Source: Dehalococcoidia bacterium (GTDB lineage: Bacteria; Chloroflexota; Dehalococcoidia; GIF9; AB-539-J10). Taken from it: a DNA stretch of 64,000 bases. A program made the translations under genes and the position numbers. The DNA is taken from positions 62,001-126,000 of the forward strand of contig JAUWYX010000001.1 in NCBI GenBank assembly GCA_030615625.1, read 5' to 3'. Under the pieces are notes generated by a model. It was not told the origin of the DNA and ran no database searches. It saw only the letters and a program-made list of their open reading frames with translations. The first letter of the stretch is position 1. Each line of letters starts with the position of its first letter. Positions 8,901 to 30,114 of the stretch are shown one piece after another.

Positions 8901-8959
8901 ACAAATAAGGGGATATAAGCAATCGTAGCAATTAAGGGAATTAAAACATTGGCATTCAT
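5915..8959 (-). CDS. Multi-TM sensor with GAF-like domains, GGDEF diguanylate cyclase and HD-GYP phosphodiesterase
   Basis: N-terminal TM segments; RNVDQAFRYGGDEF (RxxD I-site plus GGDEF); HDIGKIGIP and HHERWDGGGYPEGLKG. Confidence 0.9.
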   Translation of the reverse strand: MNANVLIPLIATIAYIPLFVILLSTRPRQQRHKLFLLFLIPAVLWSFSTFLSMSDLLIHNKPLEVKIVLCIAILMLVQFHYFVRSFYQSERIKIPLAYLFLVATIVLAALGYIPRNVGITASGINVDYGPWLIAIGLLFLSTVGARDIYSLIQKYKLSPNPSERNQIVYLFAGIAIFTVFILSAIGPRGGEFPVSHIGNLMIACVLTYAVVTYRLLDIRVVFRQALIYVVLYGGSVGIVLLLFTLAHRFVGIELNFASLAVTIGLGIPAILFLVHKVHDLWQRKVEEAFIGARYSYRRQLSDFIARIHDVLTLEQLGSEFISLLAQSIDCRRACLLLPEAGNGDFSAQFIYPPVEDNPMGELKLRQDSPIVTWLEHESTILPERKLAIFPELQSIWQEEREEIQLAGVEMFVPLMNRGELVAVLAISARRDGKFYAVEDIDLLEFIATKVAASMEKEYSHEQLKEQDEETTLVNRLTAIITSSMSIQMIFEGFAQELKKVVDIDWATIALIDGNELYFLALSSTIGSTWQPEERIPLEGTATELACREKQAVYEPDLKRHHRFWTWESHLKQGICSIAYLPLSVTDRIIGSLILASRKPNAYNRRQIQLLEKVALQIAAPVENAQLYAQLEQRARIDVLTGLFNRRHFEEQLKEEVSRHSRYGDLFSIFMLDLDTFKTYNDAYGHPAGDILLSQIGKIIKGSVRNVDQAFRYGGDEFVVILPQTARGDAYVVAERVRGQIAEEMEKKAIAVTCSIGLANYPADGVVADELVAVADNALYYAKRTGGNRIYLSSKILPKPPDNGGITGIDTRSDSLSVIYALVSAVEAKDSYTSGHSKKVNTYAVALAGAIGLSPDEVSKVSTAALLHDIGKIGIPDKVLNKKGKLSGEDWEAIKAHPRLGANIVGTMPHLVPYVNSILHHHERWDGGGYPEGLKGEEIPIEARILAIVDSFEAMTSVRPYRPALSLEQVVKELRQGAGLQFDPKLVEVFIGIIEASLSERVKIGQDASSEQSDP

Positions 8960-9168
8960 AATATCACCCTCTATATATCACCCGCTATATCATAAGGCTA
9001 TTATTGATATAAATTTGGAAACTGTCAAGAAGGACTTTAGTAATCCCCCAAAAGTACTAGGTGTTCTCAGTCACGGTTCTCCCAGCATAAGGCGGGCTTG
9101 AAGGTTTGCCTTTGTCATTCTGGGCTGCTGGCGAAGAACCTGCGAAAGACTTGAAGCTATAAACGAAA

Positions 9169-9188
9169 GGGCGAGGTTAAAACCTCGC
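9169..9188 (-). terminator. Hairpin terminator candidate downstream of the GH3-family gene
   Basis: ggcgaggttaaaacctcgcc palindrome; on the minus strand followed by CTTTCGTTT. Confidence 0.6.
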
Positions 9189-9240
9189 CTTCCTTGTCTT
9201 GGTAAGGTGCCCTGCCTTTCTCTAAACTATGCTACTGTCA

Positions 9241-10905
9241 TCAAGCAGCCGCACGTTCGGCTTCAGTTACCGGCGCAGCCTCCACCACAACCTTGGGTGC
9301 TCCGAGTAAGGAAAGCATTTCATCCGAAGGGTTAATATGTGGTGGCTTCAGGTGACCTAAATCGGCGCCCTCAGCTTGCCGTTGAGTCATATAGCTGGAA
9401 AAGGCGCCTTGGGGGAGCAAAGTAACCTCTAGGGGCTTTAAGCCAAGCACAGTTTCCATATTGCCAATAAGGCTGTAGAAGTTGCACCGATATTTCCTAT
9501 CTAATTTCTTAAATTGCTCGCGTATCGCTGCTGCCATACCTTCCTCACTGGCAATATATTCATCTCTAGGCTCAAGATAGAGATGCAGCGCAGGTTTATT
9601 ATCAATTAGTTCCTTGCGTGCTACCCAATCCACATAGGCGATGCCAGTGTTTTCAACTGCCTCCTCGATTACCCTTCCTGTCAGCCGACCAAGACTAGCA
9701 ATATCAATAAGGTCATCAGCCCTGCTATAGAATACCATCTGCGGGATATCAATATTCAGTTTTTCATTTCGCAGCGAACTTATCCTGACCATATCGCCAG
9801 GTCTATATCGAGTCATAATACCGCCATGGAAATTGGTGATGACTATCTCGTAATTCTCGCCTGCCTTTACCTCGTCCAGCAAAATAGTCTTCGGCTGGTA
9901 GGAATGGTCAAGTTGCCATTTGAAGTATTCCCTCTCGGGAATGAACTCAAAGAAGTTGAGGTTGGGAATAAAAGTCATACCTTCGTAATCCCAGGTCTGA
10001 ACGGCATAAATACCGCCCTCAGTGCCACCATACAGCTCCAGAGGTTTCCTCCCCCACAGCTCTTCTACCCCTTTCCCGAAAATGGCACTGTCTATGCCAC
10101 CACCCACAACTACCTTAACTGACCATAGATCTTTAGGCAACATAGGACGATGAGCCAACTTGCTCTTGATTAATCCTTTAATGAAGCGAGCAGATGCTTT
10201 GGGATGAGATAGCAAAAAACGAGTATCTACACTTATGGCTCCTCGCTTAAACATTTCCCCGATATAAACCAAGATAGAGGGCAAGCCGCCAAAAGCATCA
10301 AGACCCTGACACAAAGCCTCCTTAAAGCCAGCTTCTATCTTCTTTTGAAATGTCATTTCCTCGGCATTGGAAGGCAGGGGGTCAAAGCCAAGAGCTTGTT
10401 GCATTAAGTATCCCACAACACCTGATCCATAATATCGAGATGCCATAGTGGACAGAGTTTTCAAATGTTCTTTCACGAGAAAATCACCTTGGGCATTACA
10501 GGAGGCAAGAAGCCCAACGCCACCAGCCGTCCTCACAAATTCATATAAGAACCTCTCGGATAAGGGCACCCATTTGAGGTTATATTCACCAGCCCTGCCT
10601 ACCGTATGCACCCACATGGCAGGCTTGGTCGGCAACACGTCTTCCCTTTTTCCCACAAGCTCAGGTAGGTAATCAGAGTAGGTGGTCAATGGCACCTGCT
10701 CCCGGAATTCTTCCACCGTCTCAGGCATGGCACCACGCATCACCCTCTTGCCAAGCTCGCTGTTCTTTAATAGCTCAATCTCCTCCAGAAGCAGTCTCTT
10801 CTGGATAGCCATAAACTCCTCCAGGCTGAGGCCAATAAAGCCGCAGCACATCTGCCACAGCTCTTCTTTTCTCCCCTGACGCAGTAGTTCAATCGGCCTT
10901 GTCAT
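9241..10905 (-). CDS. GH3 auxin-responsive promoter family protein (acyl-adenylating type)
   Basis: YGGTEGGIYAVQ, TRYRPGDMVRISSL, FYSRADDLIDIASLGRLTGRVIEEAV and overall GH3 layout. Confidence 0.8.
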   Translation of the reverse strand: MTRPIELLRQGRKEELWQMCCGFIGLSLEEFMAIQKRLLLEEIELLKNSELGKRVMRGAMPETVEEFREQVPLTTYSDYLPELVGKREDVLPTKPAMWVHTVGRAGEYNLKWVPLSERFLYEFVRTAGGVGLLASCNAQGDFLVKEHLKTLSTMASRYYGSGVVGYLMQQALGFDPLPSNAEEMTFQKKIEAGFKEALCQGLDAFGGLPSILVYIGEMFKRGAISVDTRFLLSHPKASARFIKGLIKSKLAHRPMLPKDLWSVKVVVGGGIDSAIFGKGVEELWGRKPLELYGGTEGGIYAVQTWDYEGMTFIPNLNFFEFIPEREYFKWQLDHSYQPKTILLDEVKAGENYEIVITNFHGGIMTRYRPGDMVRISSLRNEKLNIDIPQMVFYSRADDLIDIASLGRLTGRVIEEAVENTGIAYVDWVARKELIDNKPALHLYLEPRDEYIASEEGMAAAIREQFKKLDRKYRCNFYSLIGNMETVLGLKPLEVTLLPQGAFSSYMTQRQAEGADLGHLKPPHINPSDEMLSLLGAPKVVVEAAPVTEAERAAA

Positions 10906-11994: not shown

Positions 11995-12699
11995 ATGAAT
12001 AAGATCAAAGTGATGGTAATTGATGAGCAAGCATTTTTCAGAGCCGGGGTGCGTCAGACGCTGTCTCAACAAGCTGACCTGGAGATATTAGAATGCGACC
12101 CAACTCAGAATGCACTCGAGCTAATTGAAGCTAATCTCCCTGATGTTGCTCTACTTGGCTCTGACCTGGCCAGCCTCAGCGGAATTGAGCTGGGTAGAAA
12201 AATTGCTCAATACTACCCAAATACTAAAGTAATAGTGCTAAGCCCTGACCCTAATGATGAAGAGCTTTTTGAAGTCATTAAAACTGCAGCCGTAGCCTGC
12301 TTGAGTAAGAGCGCCACTGCCGACGAGCTGGTTAGCACTATAAGACGAGCCCGCAAAGGTGAATACCCCATAAATGAAAGCCTGATGACCAGACCCAGGG
12401 TTGCCAGGCAGGTATTAAACCAGTTTCGAGGTATGGGGAGAACTATGGAAGGCATAGCCGCTCCTGTTACCAACAGGGAAACGCAGATTCTAACCTACAT
12501 TGCTGAGGGCAACTCAAATAAAGAAATCGCCCGTATCCTAGAAATCAGCGAACAAACAATTAAGAATCATGTCAGTGCCATCCTTCGTAAGCTAAATGCT
12601 AATGATAGAGCCCACGCTGTTGCTCTCGCCCTGCACAGCGGCTGGATTTCACCCGAAGCAAAACCACGGAGGGTATTAGAAGATTTTGATGAAATTTGA
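11995..12699 (+). CDS. NarL/LuxR-family response regulator
   Basis: Receiver-like N-terminus and C-terminal TNRETQILTYIAEGNSNKEIARILEISEQTIKNHVSAILRKLNANDRAHAV. Confidence 0.9.
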   Translation: MNKIKVMVIDEQAFFRAGVRQTLSQQADLEILECDPTQNALELIEANLPDVALLGSDLASLSGIELGRKIAQYYPNTKVIVLSPDPNDEELFEVIKTAAVACLSKSATADELVSTIRRARKGEYPINESLMTRPRVARQVLNQFRGMGRTMEGIAAPVTNRETQILTYIAEGNSNKEIARILEISEQTIKNHVSAILRKLNANDRAHAVALALHSGWISPEAKPRRVLEDFDEI

Positions 12700-13131: not shown

Positions 13132-15501
13132 ATGGTTAACAATGTTGACTTCAGCCAATTGGCGAATTACACTTTACCCAAATTGGAGAAAGTGGATGGG
13201 AAGGTGCGTTATATGAAAATTGATTCGGAGCTGAAGGCCCAGATTAGAGGGTATCTGGAGCAGCAGGGGTATGAAGTAACCGAGAGAGCTAAGCTCCTCG
13301 GGAACTCAGGGATTGAGCATACCTTTGATATGCTGGCTCAAAGAGACGATGGTTTTACTAGATACAATATTGCTATCGGCATTGCTGCTGGTGGTGATAG
13401 GGATATAGAAGTGGGCACCATTTTCAGCTTTGCCAATAAAGCCTATGATTGCGGCATCCTTGACAGGATTCTTATTGCCATTCCTGAACTTAGTCAGGAG
13501 ACGAAACAGCTGGCTCGCAAGCAGCGAATAAAGGTTATTGCTGGAGAACAAATTGAGCAACTATTAACCCTGAAACCCGCGCAGCCAGTTAAGCCCGAGG
13601 AGCCGGTTAGGTTTGAGACAAAGGAGGACCTGGTCAAATCTTTAGCCAACCGGGGCTATGGAGTAAAAGAGAATGCCAAAATTAAAGGCCGGTCAGGAGT
13701 TGAATATACCTTTGATATACTGGCCCATGCTGAAAGCGGTCAGGTTGAGCACAAGCTGGCTATAGATTTCCTGAATGGGGAGAAAGAAGTAAACCTGGAA
13801 CAGGTAATGTTATTTGATACTAAGGCCTATGAGGCTGGCGTTGATGAGAAGATCATTGTGGTATCGGTGGAGCTTAGCCCCGAGGCACAGCAATTTGCCC
13901 AGCACCAGCAGATAAAAGTCCTTGGGTTGGGTCAAAAACTAGTTACTAAACCTGTGACTGAAGAGATAACTGTCCAGCCAAAAGGGAAGTCAACTAAATT
14001 AGATAAGCTGAAGAGCAAGCTACTGAGGCAGATGCCCCAGCCTGAGGCACTACAATTGATTCCTGAGGTGATGGCCAGAAGGTATAATGCCATACCCCTG
14101 ACTATATCTGGCAGGACACTGGAAGTGGCTATAGCAGACCCGACTGATATCTTTGCCCTGGAGGCTCTTTCATCCCAGAGCCGAATGAATGTTAAGCCTG
14201 TAGCTGCCACTGTCCAGGAAATCAGGGACGCTATTGACTTCAATTATAAAGCCTATGGCGAAATTGAAAAGCAGATTTCTCGTGTCTCTATCCCGGCTGA
14301 AGAAACTGACGAGAAGCTTGCCCTTAGTGCTGCTACTGATACCCCTCTGGTTCAGGCTCTCAATCTTATAATTGACGAGGCAGTCAAAGCCCGCGCATCT
14401 GACATTCATATTGAGCCAGAAGAAGATAGATTGCGAATACGCTACCGTATAGATGGCACTCTTCACGATACGATGTCTACACCTTTAAGTGTACACCGGG
14501 CACTCATTTCACGAATTAAAATCCTGGCTGAAATGAATATCGCTGACCATTTTCGTCCTCAAGATGGTCAATTCTCTACCGTGGCTAAAGGGCGAGAGAT
14601 AGATGTCAGAGTCGCTACCGCTCCCACTGTCTCAGGTGAGACAGCAACCCTGCGGCTTCTGGATAAGTCACTGGCTACTCTGGGGTTAGCAGAGCTTGGT
14701 CTGCTACCTGACAGCCTGGCAAAGTATGAAAGTATGCTCAAGGTTCCCTATGGTATGATTCTGATTAGCGGTCCTACCGGAGCTGGCAAAACTACTACTC
14801 TATATGCCTCAATCAATTCCCTTGATACTCACGGGAGAAACATCATTACTATTGAAGACCCTGCTGAGTACCGATTTAAGGATATTAACCAGATTCAGGT
14901 TAACCCCCAGGCTGGCATTACCTTTGCCAGCGGCTTGAGGTCCATACTTCGTCTTGACCCTGATGTAATACTGGTTGGTGAGATACGCGATGTCGAGACA
15001 GCTAACATAGCTACTCAGGCAGCCTTAACCGGGCACCTGATGCTGTCTTCTATCCACGCTAATGATGTTGCCGGTGTGCTCTCCCGTCTCCTTGACCTGA
15101 AGGTAGAGCCGTTCTTGATAGTCTCGGCAGTTATTGGTGTTGTCGCTCAGCGGATGGTGCGTCGCATCTGCTCTGATTGTAGCCGCCTTATTGAGGCCCC
15201 CCTGGTCGAACAGATGGCTTATGAAAAGGAAATGGGGGAGAAGCAGACCGAGTTCCTCTACGGTACCGGCTGTAAGTCCTGCGCCTATACCGGTTACCTG
15301 GGGCGGACGGGAATGTTTGAGATTCTACCTATGAGCGACACTATAGGAGTGATGGTCTGTAATCAAGCCAGCAGTAGTGCTGTCCGAGAGCGGGCCATTC
15401 AAGACGGTATGATATCTATGATGAACGATGGTATGCGTAAGGTAAAGGAAGGTATTACCACCCCCTCTGAGGTGCTGCGTAATGCCTACATTACAACTTA
15501 G
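13132..15501 (+). CDS. pilB: PilB/GspE-type T4P assembly ATPase with an extra N-terminal tandem degenerate nuclease-like domain
   Basis: Walker A SGPTGAGKTTTLYAS, EDPAEYR, LRLDPDVILVGEIRDVETA, MshEN-like domain; residues 1-270 hold two ~110-aa repeats. Confidence 0.92.
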   Translation: MVNNVDFSQLANYTLPKLEKVDGKVRYMKIDSELKAQIRGYLEQQGYEVTERAKLLGNSGIEHTFDMLAQRDDGFTRYNIAIGIAAGGDRDIEVGTIFSFANKAYDCGILDRILIAIPELSQETKQLARKQRIKVIAGEQIEQLLTLKPAQPVKPEEPVRFETKEDLVKSLANRGYGVKENAKIKGRSGVEYTFDILAHAESGQVEHKLAIDFLNGEKEVNLEQVMLFDTKAYEAGVDEKIIVVSVELSPEAQQFAQHQQIKVLGLGQKLVTKPVTEEITVQPKGKSTKLDKLKSKLLRQMPQPEALQLIPEVMARRYNAIPLTISGRTLEVAIADPTDIFALEALSSQSRMNVKPVAATVQEIRDAIDFNYKAYGEIEKQISRVSIPAEETDEKLALSAATDTPLVQALNLIIDEAVKARASDIHIEPEEDRLRIRYRIDGTLHDTMSTPLSVHRALISRIKILAEMNIADHFRPQDGQFSTVAKGREIDVRVATAPTVSGETATLRLLDKSLATLGLAELGLLPDSLAKYESMLKVPYGMILISGPTGAGKTTTLYASINSLDTHGRNIITIEDPAEYRFKDINQIQVNPQAGITFASGLRSILRLDPDVILVGEIRDVETANIATQAALTGHLMLSSIHANDVAGVLSRLLDLKVEPFLIVSAVIGVVAQRMVRRICSDCSRLIEAPLVEQMAYEKEMGEKQTEFLYGTGCKSCAYTGYLGRTGMFEILPMSDTIGVMVCNQASSSAVRERAIQDGMISMMNDGMRKVKEGITTPSEVLRNAYITT

Positions 15502-15518: not shown

Positions 15519-16730
15519 ATGGATTTCGCTTATACAGCCTATACTGAAGATAAGAAATTAGTTCAGGGCAAGGTTTCGGCTATCAGTGAAGAGGCGGCAA
15601 CCGAGCTGCTGGGCTATGGCGGCTACCGGGTAGTCACCCTTAAGAAAGTCGTTCCATTATTTAATAAAGAAAAACTGCTAGCCAGCTTTTCTCGTATAAA
15701 GCCGCAAGAAGTAATCATGTTTTCCCGCCAGCTAGCGCTACTCTTGGAATCCGGCACCGATATCGTTACTTCTTTAGATTTGTTGCAAGACCAGATAACT
15801 AGTCAAACCCTGCGGAAAATAGTTGGTGGGGTAGCCTCGGATATTCGCGGTGGTAGTTCACTGTCAATGGCTCTGGACAAGCACCCTCAGGCTTTCTCTA
15901 CAATGTACTCCCAGGCAATAGCTGCCGGTGAGCAAGGCGGTAACCTGGAGGTGGTGCTGAGGCAAATGGCCGACTATATGGAGAGGGGAGCCGTCACCCA
16001 GAAGAGAATAAAAGGTGCCTTGACCTACCCCATTATCGTGGTTGTTGTCGCTATTGTCGTGGTACTGGTATTGGTCACCCTTGTTTTTCCCACCTTTGTC
16101 AGCTTTTATTCTCAACTCGGGGCTGAGATGCCTCTGCCTGCCAAAATTCTTATGGGCCTTACTAATTGGCTTAACCACTATGGGCTTTATCTTCTGCTCG
16201 TGTTTTTAATTGCTGCTGCCGCACTTTATGTCTATATCAGGACCCCGGCCGGGAGATACCGTTGGGATAAAATGATGCTTGGTTTGCCTGTAGTCGGGCG
16301 TATTGTCCACCTCAGTGAGCTTTCCCGTTGCTGCCGGACTATGTCATTGTTAATCAGAGTCGGTTTACCCCTACCGGAAGTCCTGGCCGTAACCATCCGC
16401 AGTATTACCAATAAGGCCATAAATCAGGGTTTGATCGAAGTTCAGCAGGCGTTAATCAGAGGCGAAGGCTTGTCCCAACCCATGGCTAAGAATGAGTTCT
16501 TCCTGTCCTTAATGACGCAAATGGTGAGAGTTGGCGAAGAAACCGGTAATCTCGAGAATACGCTAGGTACTGTAGCCGAAAGCTTTGAGGCCGAGGCTGA
16601 TGATAAGACCAACTCGGCTGTGGGGCTTATTCAGCCAGTGATAACGATAATTCTGGGTTTGGTGGTTGCTTTTGTTGTTTTAGCTATGTTTTCAGCCCTG
16701 TATTCTGTCTATAATCAGCTAAATATCTAG
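15519..16730 (+). CDS. pilC: PilC/GspF-type T4P inner-membrane platform protein
   Basis: FSRQLALLLESGTDIVTSLDLL, two GspF-like halves, TM segments, downstream of pilB. Confidence 0.92.
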   Translation: MDFAYTAYTEDKKLVQGKVSAISEEAATELLGYGGYRVVTLKKVVPLFNKEKLLASFSRIKPQEVIMFSRQLALLLESGTDIVTSLDLLQDQITSQTLRKIVGGVASDIRGGSSLSMALDKHPQAFSTMYSQAIAAGEQGGNLEVVLRQMADYMERGAVTQKRIKGALTYPIIVVVVAIVVVLVLVTLVFPTFVSFYSQLGAEMPLPAKILMGLTNWLNHYGLYLLLVFLIAAAALYVYIRTPAGRYRWDKMMLGLPVVGRIVHLSELSRCCRTMSLLIRVGLPLPEVLAVTIRSITNKAINQGLIEVQQALIRGEGLSQPMAKNEFFLSLMTQMVRVGEETGNLENTLGTVAESFEAEADDKTNSAVGLIQPVITIILGLVVAFVVLAMFSALYSVYNQLNI

Positions 16731-16942: not shown

Positions 16943-17422
16943 GTGAGCATTTTTGAGAAAATGAAAAGGGTAAGACTGAATAGCAAAGTAAGGAAAGCCT
17001 TTCAAGGCCGCTCCCGGGGGTTCTCCCTGATTGAGGTGGCGATAGCTATAGCCCTTATCGGGGTAATTACTGTCGCCATTCTGGGTGCCCTATCTTACGC
17101 CTCCACGGTTCTTATCATCACTGATAGGCAGGCCACTGCCGAAAGCCTGGCCAAAAGCCAGATGGAATATGTTAAAAACCAGGACTACATTGACTATTCT
17201 GAGTCTGGCCACGACGATTATGACTTGATAACCGTTGACGGTGAAGGGTATGAGATTGAGCTCGTTGTTGACGAGCTCGTTGTTGACCCAGATCAGTCCA
17301 AGCTTCAGAAGATAACGGTGATTGTCAGCTATGAGATTGTGCGCCCTGAAAATAAAGTAGTAGGAGAACAATTTATCCTGGAGGGCTATAAAAGACAGCC
17401 GGCGGACTATACAGAGGTGTAA
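16943..17422 (+). CDS. Type IV minor prepilin (PilV-like)
   Basis: Prepilin leader GRSRG/FSLIEVAIAIALIGVITVAILGAL. Confidence 0.85.
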   Translation: MSIFEKMKRVRLNSKVRKAFQGRSRGFSLIEVAIAIALIGVITVAILGALSYASTVLIITDRQATAESLAKSQMEYVKNQDYIDYSESGHDDYDLITVDGEGYEIELVVDELVVDPDQSKLQKITVIVSYEIVRPENKVVGEQFILEGYKRQPADYTEV

Positions 17423-17464
17423 AGAGTTCAGAAATCCCAAATTACAAACGGCGGCTGAATCATA

Positions 17465-18028
17465 ATGAATATGAAAAAGCTAAATAAAGACCAGAGGGGA
17501 TTTACCATGGTTGAGCTGCTGATAGCCATGCTTCTTACTGGCATCGTGGCCACCGCCATCACCGGGACCATTCTTTATGCGCTTAATGTGAACTTCAGCA
17601 TTGCCAACCGCATGTCGGCTGTCCGCCAGGTACGCAATGTTGGCTTCTGGATCAGCCCCGACGTCCAGATGGCTCAATGCGTGGAGCCCAGCGGAGGTTC
17701 GGGGTTTCCGCTCACCTTAAGCTGGACTGGTTGGGCAACTAATTATACGCATGAGGTTATTTATACTTTGGAGAATATGCCGTCTAGCGAATTTAAGAGA
17801 CTCCAGCGAGAGCATAAAATTGACTCAGACCCTCCTTCTATTACCATAGTGGCTGAATATATTGACCCGGCAGAGACTAGCTGTGTTTGGGATTGTGATT
17901 GTGATTGTTTTTGGGATGAGGATTGTGATTGGGATGATGCATGGCTTACTTTCACGGTGACCGCCACCGTGGGCGGACAAAACGAGACCCGGATATATGA
18001 AGTTGAACCCAGACCGGGCTCACAATAA
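17465..18028 (+). CDS. Type IV minor prepilin (PilW-like) with Cys/Asp/Trp-rich insert
   Basis: DQRG/FTMVELLIAMLLTGIVATAITG; CVWDCDCDCFWDEDCDWDDAW segment. Confidence 0.85.
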   Translation: MNMKKLNKDQRGFTMVELLIAMLLTGIVATAITGTILYALNVNFSIANRMSAVRQVRNVGFWISPDVQMAQCVEPSGGSGFPLTLSWTGWATNYTHEVIYTLENMPSSEFKRLQREHKIDSDPPSITIVAEYIDPAETSCVWDCDCDCFWDEDCDWDDAWLTFTVTATVGGQNETRIYEVEPRPGSQ

Positions 18029-19104: not shown

Positions 19105-20262
19105 ATGAAAACTATGATGAAGAGATTAGCAAGAGACGAAAAGGGGGCGGCGCTGGTCATGGTCCTGATTCTGCTCCTGATTAGCGGGCTCATCATCGGT
19201 CCCCTGCTGTCTTATATGGGCACCGGGCTTATCACCGGTGAAGTCTATGAGACGAGGACGGCTGAGCTTTATGCCGCCGATGCCGGGGTAGAGGACGCCA
19301 TATGGAAGATACAGAATAACGAAGGTAACCTGCCTTGTAGTCCGGGCCACTCCTGGTCTTACAATATAACCGATGTTAATGGCAAAAGCCTGCAAATATC
19401 TATAGAGTATGTAGGTGAGGGCATTTACAGAATTACCTCGATAGCCGTCACCGACGATGGTGGTGGTACTGCGGCCATCACCGGTACCGAAATAGAGGCT
19501 TATGTTACCGGTGTGAGTGCTGACTTTTCTGGCTTACTAGATAACGTTATTACCAGTCAGAATGGAATTGAATACCCACCATCTCGGGACATCAACTATC
19601 CTGAAGGACATGGCCCGGTAGACTATTATGGTGGTCTCTGGCCGACACCGGAGGGACTCGCCGAGTTCTACTGGCCGAATGTCGCAGGCGTGGAGCCATA
19701 CGATTCAGACATCTTAGACCTTGAAGGCGAGGACGATTCGTTGGGGCCGTTCTATAGAGACGGCGGATTGGAAATCCTGAACTCGATTAAGACTGACCCT
19801 CCACCTACTTTAACCCTTACTGGAACTGTTTACATTACCGGTGACACAGAAATCGGCGGCACGAAACACGACTTTACCCTTGACTTAAACGGTCAGACTA
19901 TCTTTGTTGCCAGCAATTCTTCTGCCCCCGAGAAAGCACTTTGGATAGGGGGGAAGTGTAGCATCATCGGTCCCGGCGTCATTATAGCTGTAGGGGACGT
20001 CTATTTTGAGCCAAATATACCAGTAGGCATGACCGACCCCATATTTATATTGTCAGTTTCGGGCGAAACCACTTTACAGCCCGGAGGTGCTTTCTATGGT
20101 GCCATAGCTGGTAGTGTCGAGGTGGATTTACAACCCAACACAAGCCTAAATTATCCAGAAGCGGGTTTTGGAGACGGCATTAACTTCCCCGGTTTTGGTG
20201 AACCTACGCAGCTAGTTTACAGCATTGATTCCTGGGAGGTTATCCCGCTTTGGCGGGAGTAG
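19105..20262 (+). CDS. PilX-like pilus-assembly protein, tandem paralog 1
   Basis: DEKGAALVMVLILLLISGLIIGPLLSYMGTG...AADAGVEDAIWKIQ. Confidence 0.75.
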   Translation: MKTMMKRLARDEKGAALVMVLILLLISGLIIGPLLSYMGTGLITGEVYETRTAELYAADAGVEDAIWKIQNNEGNLPCSPGHSWSYNITDVNGKSLQISIEYVGEGIYRITSIAVTDDGGGTAAITGTEIEAYVTGVSADFSGLLDNVITSQNGIEYPPSRDINYPEGHGPVDYYGGLWPTPEGLAEFYWPNVAGVEPYDSDILDLEGEDDSLGPFYRDGGLEILNSIKTDPPPTLTLTGTVYITGDTEIGGTKHDFTLDLNGQTIFVASNSSAPEKALWIGGKCSIIGPGVIIAVGDVYFEPNIPVGMTDPIFILSVSGETTLQPGGAFYGAIAGSVEVDLQPNTSLNYPEAGFGDGINFPGFGEPTQLVYSIDSWEVIPLWRE

Positions 20263-20304
20263 CCCGGCGGGTAATAAGAGTCGCTAACGATACTGAGATT
20301 AAGG

Positions 20305-20338
20305 AAAGAGGGCGGCATATAAAAGCCGCCCTCTTTTT
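20305..20338 (+). terminator. Rho-independent terminator
   Basis: aaagagggcggcatataaaagccgccctctttttgg. Confidence 0.85.
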
Positions 20339-20440
20339 GGTCTTCACATTCGGATTTCGGATTTGGCCAATATAGCCTCTCTTTCATGGCGACCTCTTCA
20401 CTGAACACTCGAGCGTGGCAAAATCATAGGACTTTGTCAC

Positions 20441-20484
20441 TATTACCAATGGGTGATTGACGCGGAACAGGATTGCTATATACT
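20441..20484 (+). promoter_or_regulatory. Promoter with shared upstream box TATTACCAATGGGTGATTGACG
   Basis: -35 TTGACG and -10 TATACT; box resembles those at 24405, 27335 (minus) and 58651. Confidence 0.55.
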
Positions 20485-20525
20485 GGTATTTAGCATAACG
20501 GCGAGGTGAAGCGAGGAAAATTGAT

Positions 20526-21680
20526 GTGAAGAGATTAATAAGAGATGAAAAGGGGCAGGCGCTGGTCATGGTCCTGATTCTGCTCCTTGTCGGCGGGCTC
20601 ATCAGCGGTCCCCTGCTGTCTTATATGGGCACCGAGCTTAACACCGGTGAAGTCTATGAGAGGAGGACTGATGAGCTTTATGCCGCCGATGCCGGGGTGG
20701 AGGATGCTGTCTGGAAGATACAGCAAGGAGAGGTGGCGCTTTGCCCTGGAGACCCGACGCACTCTTACAACATGTCCGATGTTAATGGCAAAAGCGTGGA
20801 TGTTACCATAACATCTTTTGATGGTTCAGGTAACCTGACCTTGACTTATCGCGTCGTAGCAACGGCTACCGGCGATGGCAGCGGGACCGAAATAGAGGCT
20901 TATATTTTCGGTGTCAACCCGTATGGTGATTATGCCGGCCTACTGGGTCAAGTTATTACCAGCCTGAATGAAATTGAGATCGCCCCAGGGGCGAATATCA
21001 CCCCTCCAGTGGGAGAAGAGCATGGCCCGATAGAGTATTATGAGGCCTCCTGGCCGACAGGGGAGGAACTTGCCGATTTCTACCTGGATGATGTCGCAGG
21101 CGCGGAGCCATACGATTCAGCCACCCTAGACCTTGACGGCGAGGACGATTGGATAGGGCCGTTTTATAGAGACGGCGAACTGGATATCGTGAGCACAAGC
21201 AATACTCCCGCTACTTTAACCCTTACCGGGACTGTTTACATTACCGGTGACACACAAATATACGGACCTACTTCCGTTGAGCCCTTCAAGCTGACCCTTG
21301 ACTTAAACGGGCAGACCATATTTGTTGCGAGTAATACCACTGGCAGCCATAATGCGCTTGAAATCCAGAAGTGTAACATCATCGGTCCCGGCATTATTAT
21401 AGCTGTAGGGAACATCTATTTTGCACCAAAGGCAGAATCAGGTGTGACCGATCCCATATTTGTAATGTCAGTTGAGGGCATAACCAATGTACAGCCCGGA
21501 GGTGATTTCTACGGTTCTATAGCTGGCAGTGTCGTGGTGGATTTACAACCCAACACAAGCATAAGTTATCCAGAAGGGGGGTTTGACGAATACGAACTTA
21601 ACTTCCTTATTGGTTTTCAAATGCTAATCTTCCACATTGCTTCGTGGGAGGTTATCCCGCTTCCGCCGGAGGAAGTTTAG
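20526..21680 (+). CDS. PilX-like pilus-assembly protein, tandem paralog 2
   Basis: DEKGQALVMVLILLLVGGLISGPLLSYMGTELNTGEVYERRTDELYAADAGVEDAVWKIQ; extensive similarity to the preceding gene. Confidence 0.75.
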   Translation: MKRLIRDEKGQALVMVLILLLVGGLISGPLLSYMGTELNTGEVYERRTDELYAADAGVEDAVWKIQQGEVALCPGDPTHSYNMSDVNGKSVDVTITSFDGSGNLTLTYRVVATATGDGSGTEIEAYIFGVNPYGDYAGLLGQVITSLNEIEIAPGANITPPVGEEHGPIEYYEASWPTGEELADFYLDDVAGAEPYDSATLDLDGEDDWIGPFYRDGELDIVSTSNTPATLTLTGTVYITGDTQIYGPTSVEPFKLTLDLNGQTIFVASNTTGSHNALEIQKCNIIGPGIIIAVGNIYFAPKAESGVTDPIFVMSVEGITNVQPGGDFYGSIAGSVVVDLQPNTSISYPEGGFDEYELNFLIGFQMLIFHIASWEVIPLPPEEV

Positions 21681-21829: not shown

Positions 21830-22414
21830 ATGAAGCTGAGTAAGAAAGTCGGGCTGATTGTCGGAATCGTCATTTTAGCTGTTGTCCTCGGCATCCTGTT
21901 CACGATTTACGCCGGGCAGGCTAGAGAGAGGGGGGACTTGCAGGATAGGCTGTCGAGAGATCAGACTCTCTTACCCACGCTTATTAAACAAAGGGACAGC
22001 CTGGAAGACCAACTGGCTCAAGCTCAATCATCGCTTGATAGCAGTCAGTCAAAATTCCCGGAATTGGTGGAGAGCATCGAGTACGGTGAGGACTTTTTTA
22101 AGATTGCTTATGGTCAGAAGTTATATACGATGGCAGGTGGGTGTGGGGTGGAGTTAACCAGGCTAACCGCATCACAGCCGATTAATAAAAAAGTAGGGAC
22201 TGTTACCTATTCTATTTCTTCATTTGTAGTAGTTGTCGAGGGCAACACCGATAATATACTCAAGTTCATCGATGCTATAGGAACTGGTATTGATTACGAC
22301 CTATCCTGGAGCTTCCAGCTACCCTGGAGCGTTGACGTGCATAGCATAAACATAGAAGTTAACAAGTCAAAAGCTACCATCTCGCTGAATATCTACGGCT
22401 ATAAAGGTACATAA
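21830..22414 (+). CDS. PilO-like T4P assembly protein
   Basis: N-terminal TM helix, coiled coil, gene position before PilM/N. Confidence 0.6.
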   Translation: MKLSKKVGLIVGIVILAVVLGILFTIYAGQARERGDLQDRLSRDQTLLPTLIKQRDSLEDQLAQAQSSLDSSQSKFPELVESIEYGEDFFKIAYGQKLYTMAGGCGVELTRLTASQPINKKVGTVTYSISSFVVVVEGNTDNILKFIDAIGTGIDYDLSWSFQLPWSVDVHSINIEVNKSKATISLNIYGYKGT

Positions 22415-22417
22415 AGC

Positions 22418-23842
22418 ATGGCGAAAAGAGTTACCACGTTATTTATCAGGGATAATAGCATTAACCTGCTGGTCATGAAGGGCGAAAAGGTGGAAAAGTG
22501 GGCTAGCTTACCACTGGAGCCAGGTCTGGTTAGCCAGGGGCTCATTGTTGACGAAGAGCAGGTAGCCGACAAGGTTAAGCAGGTATTTAAAGAGACAGGA
22601 GCAAAGGCAGGCAAGGTCATCAGCGCTTTAAGCGGGCATGATTCTCTGTATCGCGTCATATCCCTGCCCGAGCTGCCTGAAGCTGTAATTCCTGAGGCGG
22701 TGAGGCGTGAGGCACAGAGAACGATACCAACACCTTTAGAAGAGGTTTACTTTTCATACCAGAGCCTTCCTTCTCCGAGGGGAGAAAGTCGTGTTTTCCT
22801 GACCACCTTCCCCCGCAACGTGGTTGACGTTATGGTCAGAACGCTGCGCCAGGCCGGTGTTAAGCCACATATTATGGACTTAGCTCCCCTGGCCTTGTGC
22901 CGAATCCCGGATGAGCCCCGAGCAATCATTGTAAATGCCCGGTTAGACCACCTTGATCTCATAGTTCTGGCAGACAGGCTCCCTCAGGTCATCCGCAGGT
23001 TATCCCTGCCCACTGAGACTGAATCCTTAGAGGAAAAGCTGCCGTTTATCGCTGAAGAGTTCAACAGGACTGTTGCCTTCTATAATTCCAGCCATATGGA
23101 AAAGCCTTTAGATTCTACTGTGCCCGTGTTTGTCTGCGGCGACCTGGCAGAAGAACCGGATACCTGGCAGTCAGTGGTTGGCGGGGCAGGCTATTCGGTG
23201 TCAGCGTTGCCATCGCCTGTGGAACCCGCCGAGGGCTTCAACCCCAACGAATTCATGGTCAATATCGGGCTGGCTCTCAAGGAACTGCTGCCGGAAAAGG
23301 AAGAAGCTAACTTTTCATTAGTGAATTTTAATGCCCTCCCTGAAGCCTATGTGCCCCCGCGTTTCTCTATGGTACGAGTACTGATCCCCGTTGTTACTGT
23401 CATCGGTATCGGCCTGATTATCCTCGCCGTAATTCTTATCCTGTATAATCGCACCGAGATTGCGACATTGCGTTCCGAGGTGACAATTGCTGAGACCAGC
23501 GTTATCCAGCTGCAGCTGGACACAGCGACATTGAAAGCACAGGTTGGGTCGGCAAAAACTATCGCCGATGCCCTTAATGCCAGATTTATCACCATGGAAC
23601 GGGGGCGGGCGAGCGTTTATCTGGATTTACGCGAGATTGTAGACTTAGCGAACCAGAATGTGTTCTTCGTCCAAGTTGAGCATAAGGGCAGCTCAATAAT
23701 TGTGAAGGGGGCGGCTCCAAATGTGGGACTCATTTACAGTTATGCCCGAGATTTGAGGGAGAGCCCCAGATTCTCGAGAGTTTGGGTCGCGCGTGTCCAG
23801 GAGGACGGCCCGTGGAGTTTTGAGTTCTCCTTAACCAAATAA
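22418..23842 (+). CDS. PilM-PilN fusion-type T4P assembly protein
   Basis: PilM-like VISLPELPEAVIPEAVRREAQRTIPTPLEEVYFSY; C-terminal TM plus PilN-like coiled coil. Confidence 0.75.
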   Translation: MAKRVTTLFIRDNSINLLVMKGEKVEKWASLPLEPGLVSQGLIVDEEQVADKVKQVFKETGAKAGKVISALSGHDSLYRVISLPELPEAVIPEAVRREAQRTIPTPLEEVYFSYQSLPSPRGESRVFLTTFPRNVVDVMVRTLRQAGVKPHIMDLAPLALCRIPDEPRAIIVNARLDHLDLIVLADRLPQVIRRLSLPTETESLEEKLPFIAEEFNRTVAFYNSSHMEKPLDSTVPVFVCGDLAEEPDTWQSVVGGAGYSVSALPSPVEPAEGFNPNEFMVNIGLALKELLPEKEEANFSLVNFNALPEAYVPPRFSMVRVLIPVVTVIGIGLIILAVILILYNRTEIATLRSEVTIAETSVIQLQLDTATLKAQVGSAKTIADALNARFITMERGRASVYLDLREIVDLANQNVFFVQVEHKGSSIIVKGAAPNVGLIYSYARDLRESPRFSRVWVARVQEDGPWSFEFSLTK

Positions 23843-24543: not shown

Positions 24544-25617
24544 ATGGATGTTTTTTCATTGCTTCGGACAGGTAAGTCAAGACGGGCTAGCGATTTACAT
24601 ATGGTTGTTGGCAGCCCGGCAACGTTCCGCATCGACGGCTCCCTGGAACCAGCAGACGGTGTAGCTCCACTAACTCCTGAGGATGTAAACGAAGCTTTTC
24701 TCCAGCTAACCACGCCTGAGGAGAGGGAACACTTCCACCGCCAACTGGAGCTTGATTTTGGCTATACGTTACCTGATGTCGGTCGTCTGCGATGCAATGC
24801 CGCTCAGCAGCGCGGGTCTATCAGCCTTGCTCTGCGCCTGTTGCCACCAAAAATCCCCACCCTGGACGAGCTGGAGCTGCCTGCGATATGTAAGGAGCTT
24901 GCCATGAAGCCCAGAGGACTGGTAGTGATTACGGGACCTACCGGCAGTGGTAAAAGTACCACCATGGCAGCTATGATTCAACACTTGAATACTCATGAAA
25001 CCCGCCATGTAGTTACCATTGAAGACCCCATAGAATATGTTCACACCAGCATTAAATGTGCTGTGACCCAGCGTCAGTTGGGCACTGATACCTTATCCTT
25101 TGACAATGCTCTGAAACACATCTTAAGGCAGGACCCGGATGTGATTCTGGTCGGCGAGATGAGAGATCCGGAGACTGCCGACGCTGTCCTTACCGTAGCT
25201 GAGACAGGGCACTTTATATTAACTACCGGTCATGCCCCCAGCGCTACTCAGGCAATAGAGAGAATAATTGATTTGTTCCCACCTCATCAGCGCCACCTGG
25301 CCCAGACACGGCTGGCTTCTTTACTTATTGGTGCGCTATGTCAGGTGCTTGTGCCCCGGGCTGATGGTTCAGGGAGGGTAGCCGCCGTAGAAGTCATGCT
25401 CGGCAATCCGGCAGTGAAAAACCTCATTCGGGAAGGCAAAATCTACCAGTTACCCAATGTAATCCGTACCCACCGGGACATGGGCATGATTTCGCTTGAC
25501 GAAGCCCTGGTCGAGATCTACCTCAAGGGAATCATCACTGGCAAAATCGTGCTCGATTTCTGCAATGACCGCCAGGAAGTGGAAAAGCTCGTTGGCAAGA
25601 TTATAGTAACCGCCTAA
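24544..25617 (+). CDS. pilT: PilT-type T4P retraction ATPase
   Basis: ITGPTGSGKSTTMAAMIQHLN, VTIEDPIEYVH, LRQDPDVILVGEMRDPETADAVLTVAETGH. Confidence 0.93.
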   Translation: MDVFSLLRTGKSRRASDLHMVVGSPATFRIDGSLEPADGVAPLTPEDVNEAFLQLTTPEEREHFHRQLELDFGYTLPDVGRLRCNAAQQRGSISLALRLLPPKIPTLDELELPAICKELAMKPRGLVVITGPTGSGKSTTMAAMIQHLNTHETRHVVTIEDPIEYVHTSIKCAVTQRQLGTDTLSFDNALKHILRQDPDVILVGEMRDPETADAVLTVAETGHFILTTGHAPSATQAIERIIDLFPPHQRHLAQTRLASLLIGALCQVLVPRADGSGRVAAVEVMLGNPAVKNLIREGKIYQLPNVIRTHRDMGMISLDEALVEIYLKGIITGKIVLDFCNDRQEVEKLVGKIIVTA

Positions 25618-26772: not shown

Positions 26773-27177
26773 TTATGGTGTTACGACTCTCTTCCACTTC
26801 CCGTGAAACCCAGTCGCGCCGGTCTCGTAGTCAGTAAATTCAATTAAGACGTTCCAAGTACTATTCGACGCTCCTACTAACCACCCAAAATCATCATCGA
26901 TGTCGTAGATAGCCCCCGGCGTTCCTGAGATGTAGTCGGGCACCAGGAGGCTTGAATCGGCGGGCCACTCACCATACTCACCAAAGTAGCCCAGCGACCC
27001 CGTTTTCACCTGCTCTGCCTCGGAGTTGGCTGCGGACAGTTCGCCGGTAATCATAAACCCAGAGATGTTGGGGATAACCACGGCGGCGATAATGCCCAGG
27101 ATGGCCACCACGATAAGCAGCTCAATCAGGGTGAATCCTTTCTCTCCACGGTGCGCTATTTTCATAAATCTTCCCAT
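26773..27177 (-). CDS. Type IV pilin (possible major pilin)
   Basis: HRGEKG/FTLIELLIVVAILGIIAAVVIPN class III leader. Confidence 0.92.
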   Translation of the reverse strand: MGRFMKIAHRGEKGFTLIELLIVVAILGIIAAVVIPNISGFMITGELSAANSEAEQVKTGSLGYFGEYGEWPADSSLLVPDYISGTPGAIYDIDDDFGWLVGASNSTWNVLIEFTDYETGATGFHGKWKRVVTP

Positions 27178-27384: not shown

Positions 27385-27800
27385 GGGGTGTCATTGCGAG
27401 CGAAGCGTGGCAATCCCCATCCTCACCAGCCCCACCACTGAGATTGCTTCGGCACTGTCGTGCCTCGCAACGACAGGGAGAGGTGTCACACCGAGATTGC
27501 TTCGACACTGTCGTGCCTCGCAATGACAAAGAAGGGGTGTCATTGCGAGCGAAGCGTGGCAATCCCCATTCTCACCAGCCCCACCACTGAGATTGCTTCG
27601 TCGCTATGCTCCTCGCAATGACAAAGGAAGAAGGTGCCTCGCAATGACAAAGGAAGAAGGTGCCTCGCAACGACAAAGAAGAGGTGTCATTGCCGCAAAG
27701 AAGCCCAAATGTCAAAATCCAAATGACAATTGAAATCCAAATACTTAAATGCTAAAACTACTCCGTTTTGTCATTGGGATTTGGTGCTTGGGATTCAGAG
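27385..27800. repeat. Repeat array: several palindromic GTCATTGCGAG copies and composite copy 3
   Basis: gtcattgcgagcgaagcgtggcaatccccat(c/t)ctcaccagccccaccactgagattgcttcg occurs twice; AT-rich element at ~27700-27800. Confidence 0.85.
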
Positions 27801-29185
27801 TTTCCCTCTCCAGATGGCTCTGACTCCAGTTGTTCAACCTCAAAGACCCTTATCCCCTGACGCTCAGCAAACTGCATGGCTTCCTTGGTGAGTCCAGGAA
27901 CAGCAATAAGGACCTTGTCCATAATACTTGCATCATAAGCCCTGTCGTCAAAGTCAAATACCCTATCCAGTTCCATCGGCTTCTTATCCACATCGATGCC
28001 GATAGCAATACGATGAGTAATGATGCCCTCTTCCTTGGTAGCCAGTATGTCTATGTTATGGGCAGCGCCAGACCGGCCTTTGACTTCAGCATTTTCCTTT
28101 ACTCTGTAGCCCTGTTTCCTCAGGTATTGTATGAGCTGTGATTTGGACTTAAATTCAAAAGGCTCCTTCACTATTTCCGGGCCTCGCTGGGGACCGCCAG
28201 TCAGCACTATTTCCAGGTCCTTGGGTTCAAGCACCTTTATCCTATGGTAGCTGGCAAATTTCGCCGCCTCTTCACCTAACGTGGGGATGATAATCAGTAC
28301 TTTATCGTGAATGCCGCTATCGAAGGCTTTGACATCAAAATCCAATATCCTGTCCAGTCCTATCTTATCCCTGGCAATCTCAACCCCGATAGCGACATTA
28401 TGGGTAACTACGCCGTCATCCCTGGTAGCCAGCATATCTATGCTATGTTCTGCCCCCGACCTTCCCTGCACCCTGGCGTTTTCCGTTACCTCGTAGCCGT
28501 GCCGCCTCAAGAATTCAAGGAACTGCACTTTAGGCTGAATTTCAAATTCCAGCCAGTTTCTCTTCGATTCATCAAGGGTATACGCGTAGATATTTACCTC
28601 GTCAATCGCATCCTCATTGGCAAGCGAGGAACATTTCAGGCAGCGCCACTTTAGCAACGGCACGTTAAATATCTCGCCGCAATCACGGCACTTGCGCAGC
28701 ACCCCCCGGCTATGGTAGTCGGTGCCCAGAGTTCGCAGCTCCAGTTTACACCTGGGGCATATATATTTACCCTTGGCCGCAAATTCGTCTTCAACTCCGA
28801 CATAACCGCAGGCCGAGTGCTCGAGGATTCTGCCCCGGACAATATCTCCTGAGCTGCATTTAGGGCAGTGAGTGCTTGGTCTTAAATTTATTGACTGGCA
28901 CCGGGAACAACGGAGGATCCTATCAAAGAAGCTCCTTTTCAATATCTCCTTATCAGTCAGGGATTCCACAATTGCTACTGCTTCCGTGCCTTTGACCTTT
29001 ACTGTTTGCTCAACGACTGGATAGATGAAGCCCAGTTCAGTGGTGAAATCAAGCTGGGGTTTAATATCAACAATCTTCGACTCCAGCATTGCCGCCACCA
29101 ATTTCAGCGCCCTCTCATCCTTCTCCATATCGCTTATGGCTTGGGGGGCTTCTGTTGCTTCTACCTCTTTATCGACTTCTTTCAT
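27758..29185 (-). CDS. TackOD1-type zinc-ribbon protein with two C-terminal degenerate nuclease-like domains
   Basis: RCSRCQSINLRPSTHCPKCSSGDIVRGRILEHSACGYVGVEDEF...ICPRCKLELRTLGTDYHSRGVLRKCRDCGEIFN, then two GYxVxENAxxxGRSGAxHxIDxLAT repeats. Confidence 0.75.
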   Translation of the reverse strand: MKEVDKEVEATEAPQAISDMEKDERALKLVAAMLESKIVDIKPQLDFTTELGFIYPVVEQTVKVKGTEAVAIVESLTDKEILKRSFFDRILRCSRCQSINLRPSTHCPKCSSGDIVRGRILEHSACGYVGVEDEFAAKGKYICPRCKLELRTLGTDYHSRGVLRKCRDCGEIFNVPLLKWRCLKCSSLANEDAIDEVNIYAYTLDESKRNWLEFEIQPKVQFLEFLRRHGYEVTENARVQGRSGAEHSIDMLATRDDGVVTHNVAIGVEIARDKIGLDRILDFDVKAFDSGIHDKVLIIIPTLGEEAAKFASYHRIKVLEPKDLEIVLTGGPQRGPEIVKEPFEFKSKSQLIQYLRKQGYRVKENAEVKGRSGAAHNIDILATKEEGIITHRIAIGIDVDKKPMELDRVFDFDDRAYDASIMDKVLIAVPGLTKEAMQFAERQGIRVFEVEQLESEPSGEGNSESQAPNPNDKTE

Positions 29186-29311: not shown

Positions 29312-29394
29312 TGCCGAGGGAGGGACTCGAACCCACACTCCCTTGCAGGAAGCGGATTTTAAGTCCGCCGCGTCTACCATTCCGCCACCTCGGC
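29312..29394 (-). tRNA. tRNA-Leu (anticodon TAA)
   Basis: GCCGAGGTGGCGGAATGGTAGACGCGGCGGACTTAAAATCCGC...GGGTTCGAGTCCCTCCCTCGGCA. Confidence 0.93.
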
Positions 29395-29415
29395 CTGACA
29401 ATTGATAGCTCAAGA

Positions 29416-29488
29416 AGGCGGCGGGCGGATTCGAACCGCCGCATCGGGGTTTTGCAGACCCCTGCCTTAACCTCTTGGCTACACCGCC
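29416..29488 (-). tRNA. tRNA-Cys (anticodon GCA)
   Basis: GGCGGTGTAGCCAAGAGGTTAAGGCAGGGGTCTGCAAAACCCC...GGTTCGAATCCGCCCGCCGCCT. Confidence 0.93.
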
Positions 29489-29508
29489 GCAACTACCAGA
29501 TTTACTGG

Positions 29509-29580
29509 AGCGGAAGACGGGATTCGAACCCGCGACCTCTTCCTTGGCAAGGAAGCATTCTACCGCTGAACTACTTCCGC
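29509..29580 (-). tRNA. tRNA-Gly (anticodon GCC)
   Basis: GCGGAAGTAGTTCAGCGGTAGAATGCTTCCTTGCCAAGGAAG...GGTTCGAATCCCGTCTTCCGCT. Confidence 0.93.
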
Positions 29581-29629
29581 TCTGAATAAATTTTACCGTC
29601 TTTTCCCGGTTCCCGCAAGCTGATCTTGG

Positions 29630-29713
29630 TGCCGAGGGGGAGATTTGAACTCCCACGGGCTTGCGCCCACCACCCCCTCAAGATGGCGTGTCTACCTATT
29701 CCACCACCTCGGC
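29630..29713 (-). tRNA. tRNA-Leu (anticodon GAG)
   Basis: Anticodon stem CCATC/GGTGG with loop TTGAGGG; long variable arm. Confidence 0.88.
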
Positions 29714-29717
29714 CTGG

Positions 29718-29791
29718 CAGGGGTGGCAGGACTCGAACCCGCGACCTGCGGTTTTGGAGACCGCTGCTCTAGCCAACTGAGCTACACCCCT
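29718..29791 (-). tRNA. tRNA-Trp (anticodon CCA)
   Basis: AGGGGTGTAGCTCAGTTGGCTAGAGCAGCGGTCTCCAAAACCGC...GGTTCGAGTCCTGCCACCCCTG. Confidence 0.93.
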
Positions 29792-29815
29792 GAATCAGCG
29801 TAATTATATCAAAAA

Positions 29816-29888
29816 TACCCCTGGGGCGACTCGAACGCCCGACACGCGGTTTAGGAAACCGCTGCTCTATCCACTGAGCTACAGGGGC
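29816..29888 (-). tRNA. tRNA-Arg (anticodon CCT)
   Basis: GCCCCTGTAGCTCAGTGGATAGAGCAGCGGTTTCCTAAACCGC...CGTTCGAGTCGCCCCAGGGGTA. Confidence 0.93.
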
Positions 29889-30041
29889 ACGCTACTACCA
29901 AAACCCTCGCTGTGTCACAGGTCTTTCGCAAGTTTTCCTGATTTTTATGTTAACCAAAAGCCTTAACTATATCTCCAGAGAGACCCTTCGTTAGCTCGGT
30001 TTCCCGAAGGGCACTCCAGCCATCTTTCCAGAATTTCATGG

Positions 30042-30114
30042 TGGAGATAGGGGGATTCGAACCCCCGACCTCTGCGATGCGAACGCAGCGCTCTCCCAAT
30101 TGAGCTATATCCCC
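30042..30114 (-). tRNA. tRNA-Ala (anticodon CGC), with encoded CCA at 30039-30041
   Basis: GGGGATATAGCTCAATTGGGAGAGCGCTGCGTTCGCATCGCAG...GGTTCGAATCCCCCTATCTCCACCA. Confidence 0.92.

Follow-up and report, generated by a model that had tools for sequence, protein, structure and literature searches.

The type IV pilus locus

The window, meaning the whole analysed stretch of 64,000 nucleotides from a Dehalococcoidia bacterium, carries a type IV pilus (T4P) locus in which two proteins contain the same repeated domain, here named iRE for the single repeat and iRE2 for the tandem pair. The first of these proteins is a PilB-type ATPase of 789 aa (13132..15501, plus strand; T2SSE 415 bits, MshEN 59 bits, Mrr_cat 36 bits), which begins with iRE-1 (13216..13566; profile E 3e-54) and iRE-2 (13597..13935; profile E 1e-52), both over the Mrr_cat cut-off, and continues with the ND1 part of an MshEN domain (14032..14247; Pfam), matching profile positions 12-84, and the T2SSE ATPase core (14332..15480; Pfam). 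Neither direct reading nor a motif scan recognised a c-di-GMP motif in the MshEN domain. A REC-LuxR response regulator (11995..12699; Pfam) lies upstream and is a conserved neighbour of iRE2-PilB in the loci of relatives. Downstream follow, likewise on the plus strand, the platform protein PilC (15519..16730; T2SSF, Pfam), two pseudopilins (16943..18028, comprising 16943-17422 and 17465-18028; N_methyl, Pfam), two paralogous PilX-like genes (19105..21680, comprising 19105-20262 and 20526-21680; no Pfam match in the one of the two that was scanned), a PilO-like gene recognised by position and conservation in relatives (21830..22414; no Pfam match), a PilM gene that is probably a PilM-PilN fusion (22418..23842; PilM_2 61 bits, TIGR01175) and the retraction ATPase PilT (24544..25617; TIGR01420, 418 bits, over cut-off). 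A PilA-like pilin (26773..27177, minus strand; N_methyl) stands beside the second iRE2 gene, an adjacency that is conserved.

From its gene context, the PilB of the window is predicted to be the pilus extension motor: it combines a T2SSE core with MshEN, PilC adjoins it and PilT is encoded separately, and its scores do not reach the NCBIfam equivalog cut-offs set for type IV-A PilB or GspE. The AlphaFold model of the full protein is poor (pLDDT 55), its alignment being too shallow.

Several other genes were observed in the window. A 23S rRNA-intervening-sequence-type protein (PF05635; 23950-24324) is encoded within the T4P operon, after the PilM gene and before pilT. A GAF-GGDEF-HD protein and a GH3-family protein (5915-10905) are encoded upstream of the response regulator and pilB, and many relatives have genes of both kinds beside pilB or TackOD1 loci. 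Further away, a histidine kinase of 1368 aa (58978-63084) contains, by reading, a long series of PAS-like repeats.

A TackOD1 protein with the repeats of PilB

The second protein (475 aa, ATG start; 27758..29185, minus strand; Pfam, blastp, AlphaFold model) consists of a low-confidence start, a TackOD1 domain and two iRE domains. TackOD1 occupies residues 21-204 (28574..29125; PF18551, 142 bits against a cut-off of 32), and this is its single occurrence above cut-off in the 1.62 Mb genome by profile search. All 12 zinc ligands, in five CxxC and one HxxC, are present (C93/96, C107/110, H123/C126, C143/146, C166/169 and C182/185) and are kept across 34 relatives, in agreement with the 11 Cys (five CxxC and one HxxC) given for the domain in PMC5847659. 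The tie to T4P loci or REC domains that marks this family is also found, in the form of T4P loci and, in two related loci (L127 and L128), of fusion to REC. The AlphaFold model, based on an alignment of 34 sequences, has a mean pLDDT of 86 and places three helices and a strand (H24-34, H56-62, H67-78, E82-92) before the zinc ribbons; Pfam gave no HTH match in this protein. A cluster of seven tRNA genes (29312-30114, minus strand) lies just upstream of the gene.

The repeats of the TackOD1 protein (residues ~213-328 and ~340-455; iRE-1, 28202..28549, and iRE-2, 27821..28168, both minus strand) align with PilB residues ~29-145 and ~156-268. The pairs are 39% identical over 276 aa (blastp, E 9.8e-56), 23 columns are invariant in the four-way alignment, and a search of the complete genome (1.62 Mb) with a profile of the four repeats recovered these four copies and no others (E 1e-52 to 1e-57). 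This homology is far beyond chance. An initial annotation, which had described a zinc ribbon followed by two repeats alignable to those of PilB and had counted four copies at the locus, is confirmed in both respects, there being no fifth copy in the genome.

A nuclease fold that has lost its catalytic motif

On the nature of the repeat the same annotation must be corrected, since it overlooked that the repeat is a catalytically dead PD-(D/E)xK nuclease. The Mrr_cat profile (PF04471), that of a type IV restriction endonuclease, matches the TackOD1 protein with 43 bits and PilB with 36 bits (cut-off 21), and is also above cut-off in several other family members. NA-iREase1 (PF22722), an inactive REase domain of the same fold, reaches 24.9 bits in PilB, just below its cut-off of 27, and has no Pfam match in the TackOD1 protein of the window. 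The model of the latter shows a repeated helix-hairpin-strand-helix-strand order, and its best Foldseek match in the PDB is AF1548 (1y88; E 3.5e-7), with EndoMS, Can2/Cdn1, AspBHI, MspJI and FokI among the further matches, all of them PD-(D/E)xK-fold proteins. Lower down come Rpb5-type subunits (RNA polymerase E-chains), the jaw of which has a non-catalytic REase-like fold. A phmmer search of PDB sequences returned no real homologue, and the profile reached AF1548 at E 0.24 only, a hit later backed by the fold match. Profile and fold therefore both place the repeat in the Mrr_cat/PD-(D/E)xK fold, as summed up for iRE-1 by Pfam, the four-repeat profile, the model, Foldseek and the motif count, and for iRE-2 by Mrr_cat (43 bits for the protein) and the four-repeat profile.

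The motif-II Asp is present in 128 of the 138 aligned iRE copies, preceded by a nearly invariant SG motif, and an [EDQ]-x-K catalytic motif occurs in none of them. Because the catalytic E-x-K is gone in 138 of 138 copies, the iRE is, judged by its motifs, a catalytically dead member of the fold and not an active nuclease. In this loss it differs from Mrr_cat and NA-iREase1, and also in its partners: the iRE is found on a pilus motor and a TackOD1 protein, not on restriction or NACHT-type proteins, and the fusion to a NACHT/STAND NTPase that characterises NA-iREase1 was not found. The mean net charge is negative in all iRE domain groups (-1.9 to -3.4).

Distribution across genomes

In a class sample of 245 genomes, iRE matches (E 1e-5 or better) were obtained in 34, of which 33 have them solely in PilB or TackOD1 ORFs by locus mapping, a few matches having been assigned by ORF length alone or on ORF fragments at contig ends (e.g. 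L063). The exception (G205) is a weak Mrr-like match with E 6.5e-6, located in a frame of its own of 287 codons. TackOD1 is present in 15 class genomes, all 15 of which are also iRE genomes, and in 14 of these TackOD1 shares its ORF with the iRE pair or with the first part of the pair; in the fifteenth (G213) the gene is cut by the contig end. A sample of 350 genomes of the phylum gave no iRE match outside the class and no TackOD1 in other Chloroflexota classes, and a further scan for loci returned 45, all labelled as Chloroflexota and mostly as Dehalococcoidia. These relatives are mostly represented by MAG contigs.

The iRE2 is associated with T4P loci. PilM was found in 28 of 33 iRE genomes versus 64 of 212 others (Fisher p 2.7e-9, for 245 related and hence not independent genomes), and a T4P gene lies within 5 kb in 26 of 38 distinct TackOD1 loci. 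The remaining 12 have none within that distance, and most of these are on short contigs; in two (L095 and L114) no T4P gene appears along about 10 kb of flanking sequence downstream. The statement that every TackOD1 gene lies in a T4P locus was accordingly dropped. Since many PilM-bearing class genomes have no iRE module, T4P do not in themselves require it. Wide occurrence of the domain away from pilus genes, which the initial annotation had named as the outcome that would speak against its reading, was looked for in the class and phylum genomes and not seen. As to its proposal that the domain, as a putative pairing or ligand-sensing module, links a regulator to the pilus motor, the genetic tie holds, with PilB and the TackOD1 protein as the only carriers of the module, and the regulatory part is plausible in view of the REC fusion in a side clade.

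Gene arrangements and history

Three layouts were distinguished. In layout a, that of the window, a REC-LuxR gene is followed by iRE2-PilB, PilC and further pilus genes, and TackOD1-iRE2 is near pilA/pilT, usually 0.1-0.9 kb from pilA. In layout b, TackOD1-iRE2 precedes the gene of a ~520 aa PilB by 9-167 bp, or in one case overlaps it; this PilB has no iRE2 and only a short stretch before ND1. Layouts a and b are Rosetta-stone arrangements, with iRE2 either fused to PilB or encoded just upstream of it. In layout c, that of family f16 (mostly single-contig genomes of 1.4-2.1 Mb), iRE2-PilB is kept and TackOD1 is absent by profile search; iRE2 on PilB must therefore also act without TackOD1.

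In a tree of 69 pairs, TackOD1 pairs and PilB pairs form the two sides of one branch (100/98), and in a single-domain tree, built on a short alignment, the iRE-2 of PilB groups with the iRE-2 of layout-b proteins. This picture is compatible with, though no proof of, iRE2-PilB having arisen when two neighbouring genes fused. The PilB cores that lack iRE2 group in a single clade, within which the iRE2-PilB of one genome (G166) nests, so that gain and loss may have occurred in either order.

The side clade consists of REC-TackOD1-iRE2 proteins (L127, 3884-6241; L128, 4638-6737) with Response_reg over cut-off in Pfam and part of the TackOD1 Cys lost. Both genes are located away from T4P loci, and each immediately follows an OmpR-type REC-wHTH gene (Pfam-checked for L127); in L128, genes for a GAF histidine kinase and a zinc-ribbon KaiC-type ATPase also precede REC-TackOD1-iRE2 in the same run.

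Other variants were encountered. One genome (G145) has a second, divergent TackOD1-iRE2 protein (L067:2-1714) with several zinc-binding Cys lost and a proline/glutamine-rich N-terminus, and one PilB of 1098 aa carries four iRE copies (L074:1570-4866, minus strand). Small, possibly Roadblock-like paralogues adjoin iRE2-PilB in two lineages (L071:9289-11051 and L074:4905-5348, both minus strand): in G166 three of them stand between TackOD1-iRE2 and iRE2-PilB, one with a sub-threshold Roadblock-type match (MAPKK1_Int, 19 versus 25 bits). Immediately upstream of the four-iRE PilB stands a further relative.

Possible role of the iRE2 module

We favour, with a probability of roughly 0.5, a role of iRE2 as a docking module that attaches TackOD1- or REC-type regulation to the PilB motor. 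On PilB the pair is located at the N-terminus, ahead of ND1, where other PilB/MshE ATPases have their regulatory ND0/GSPII modules. Given that the PilB of the window has ND1 but no c-di-GMP motif, and that layout-b PilBs are short before ND1, iRE2 therefore fills the N-terminal regulatory position or is supplied for it in trans. The TackOD1-iRE2 protein may then be a cytoplasmic adaptor carrying regulatory input, through a receiver domain in the side clade, to the motor. Its iRE2 might contact the iRE2 of PilB where present and otherwise ND1 or the ATPase, and this contact could either promote or restrain pilus extension; physical contact, binding surface and direction of effect are inferred. 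A more specific version, in which the dead fold works as a plug and socket for interchangeable adaptors (TackOD1, REC-TackOD1) on the T4P motor by heterotypic iRE-iRE pairing, is put forward tentatively, as the less likely form of the idea.

The N-terminal region of PilB is a known site of regulation and docking. In Xanthomonas citri, PilZ docks on ND0/ND1 of PilB (PMC8389850; PMC11656802), and a PilM-type contact at the N-terminal region of PilB has been inferred (PMC8389850, PMC11656802). The PilB-PilZ-FimX complex resembles the docking inferred here in that a small adaptor on the N-terminal region controls extension (PMC8389850), but the families are unrelated, and here one paralogous module is present on both adaptor and motor. 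PilF of Thermus and MshE likewise have extra N-terminal regulatory modules on an extension ATPase (PMC11656802); their GSPII/MshEN modules bind c-di-GMP, whereas iRE2 has a different fold. TackOD1 (PF18551/arCOG06883) of TACK archaea has the same zinc-rich domain of five CxxC and one HxxC. The arCOG06883 proteins are mostly found in T4P loci of Thaumarchaea (PMC4858521), a record that the initial annotation had overlooked. In archaea TackOD1 is known as an output domain linked to REC, and its function was termed obscure when it was named (PMC5847659). In the present proteins, two dead REase-fold domains in common with PilB come after TackOD1, an architecture of which no mention was found in the available portions of PMC4858521 and PMC5847659.

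Other roles have to be weighed against docking. The TackOD1-iRE2 protein could chiefly regulate the transcription of pilin genes, with TackOD1 binding DNA near pilA and iRE2 tethering it to PilB such that motor state is coupled to pilin expression. The proximity of the gene to pilA in window-type layouts is in keeping with this, as are the winged-helix-like appearance of the modelled helices and hairpin before the ribbons and the archaeal REC-wHTH-TackOD1 proteins described in PMC5847659. However, the layout-b gene is coupled to pilB and not to pilA, a Pfam HTH match is absent and dedicated LuxR/OmpR-type regulators already stand beside these loci, which makes a regulator of this kind rather unlikely. 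A role in anchoring DNA at the base of the pilus, be it incoming DNA during uptake or the chromosome in nucleoid tethering, appears improbable: DNA-binding nucleases share the fold and most iRE genomes have ComEC, but the mean charge is negative in every domain group, and ComEC, found in 188 of 245 class genomes, does not discriminate and is for that reason uninformative on DNA uptake.

We also consider it doubtful, to much the same degree as a DNA anchor, that iRE2 senses a small ligand (a nucleotide or second messenger), an option raised in the initial annotation, in place of the c-di-GMP-binding ND0 of MshE-type motors. Its position, the retained active-site Asp with the SG motif and the frequent presence of a GGDEF-HD gene nearby would suit such a sensor, but no ligand-binding REase-fold relative is among the Foldseek matches, and the match to Can2/Cdn1 is through the nuclease fold, the known sensor of these proteins being a different domain. 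That iRE domains are active nucleases, as the Mrr_cat family match taken by itself would imply, is hardly credible with the motif missing from every copy, and a direct nuclease role was rejected on this ground. A defence role was also rejected, PADLOC having returned nothing for the TackOD1 protein and weak matches only for PilB.

Concluding remarks

The presence of TackOD1 in archaeal T4P loci was already known (PMC4858521), and no report of a dead-nuclease module on a T4P motor was found in the literature searched. The data suggest that a retired DNA-cutting fold has been reused as a docking part for pilus-motor control, an example of how a nuclease fold can enter a pilus ATPase without its catalytic function. 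Fusion and operon logic tie TackOD1 to the PilB motor and provide a direct hypothesis for both bacteria and archaea; if the plug-and-socket reading is true, the TackOD1 part would be a bacterial clue to the role of TackOD1 in archaeal pili. For the Dehalococcoidia, a group with little-studied pili, iRE2 constitutes a new kind of N-terminal module on pilus motors.
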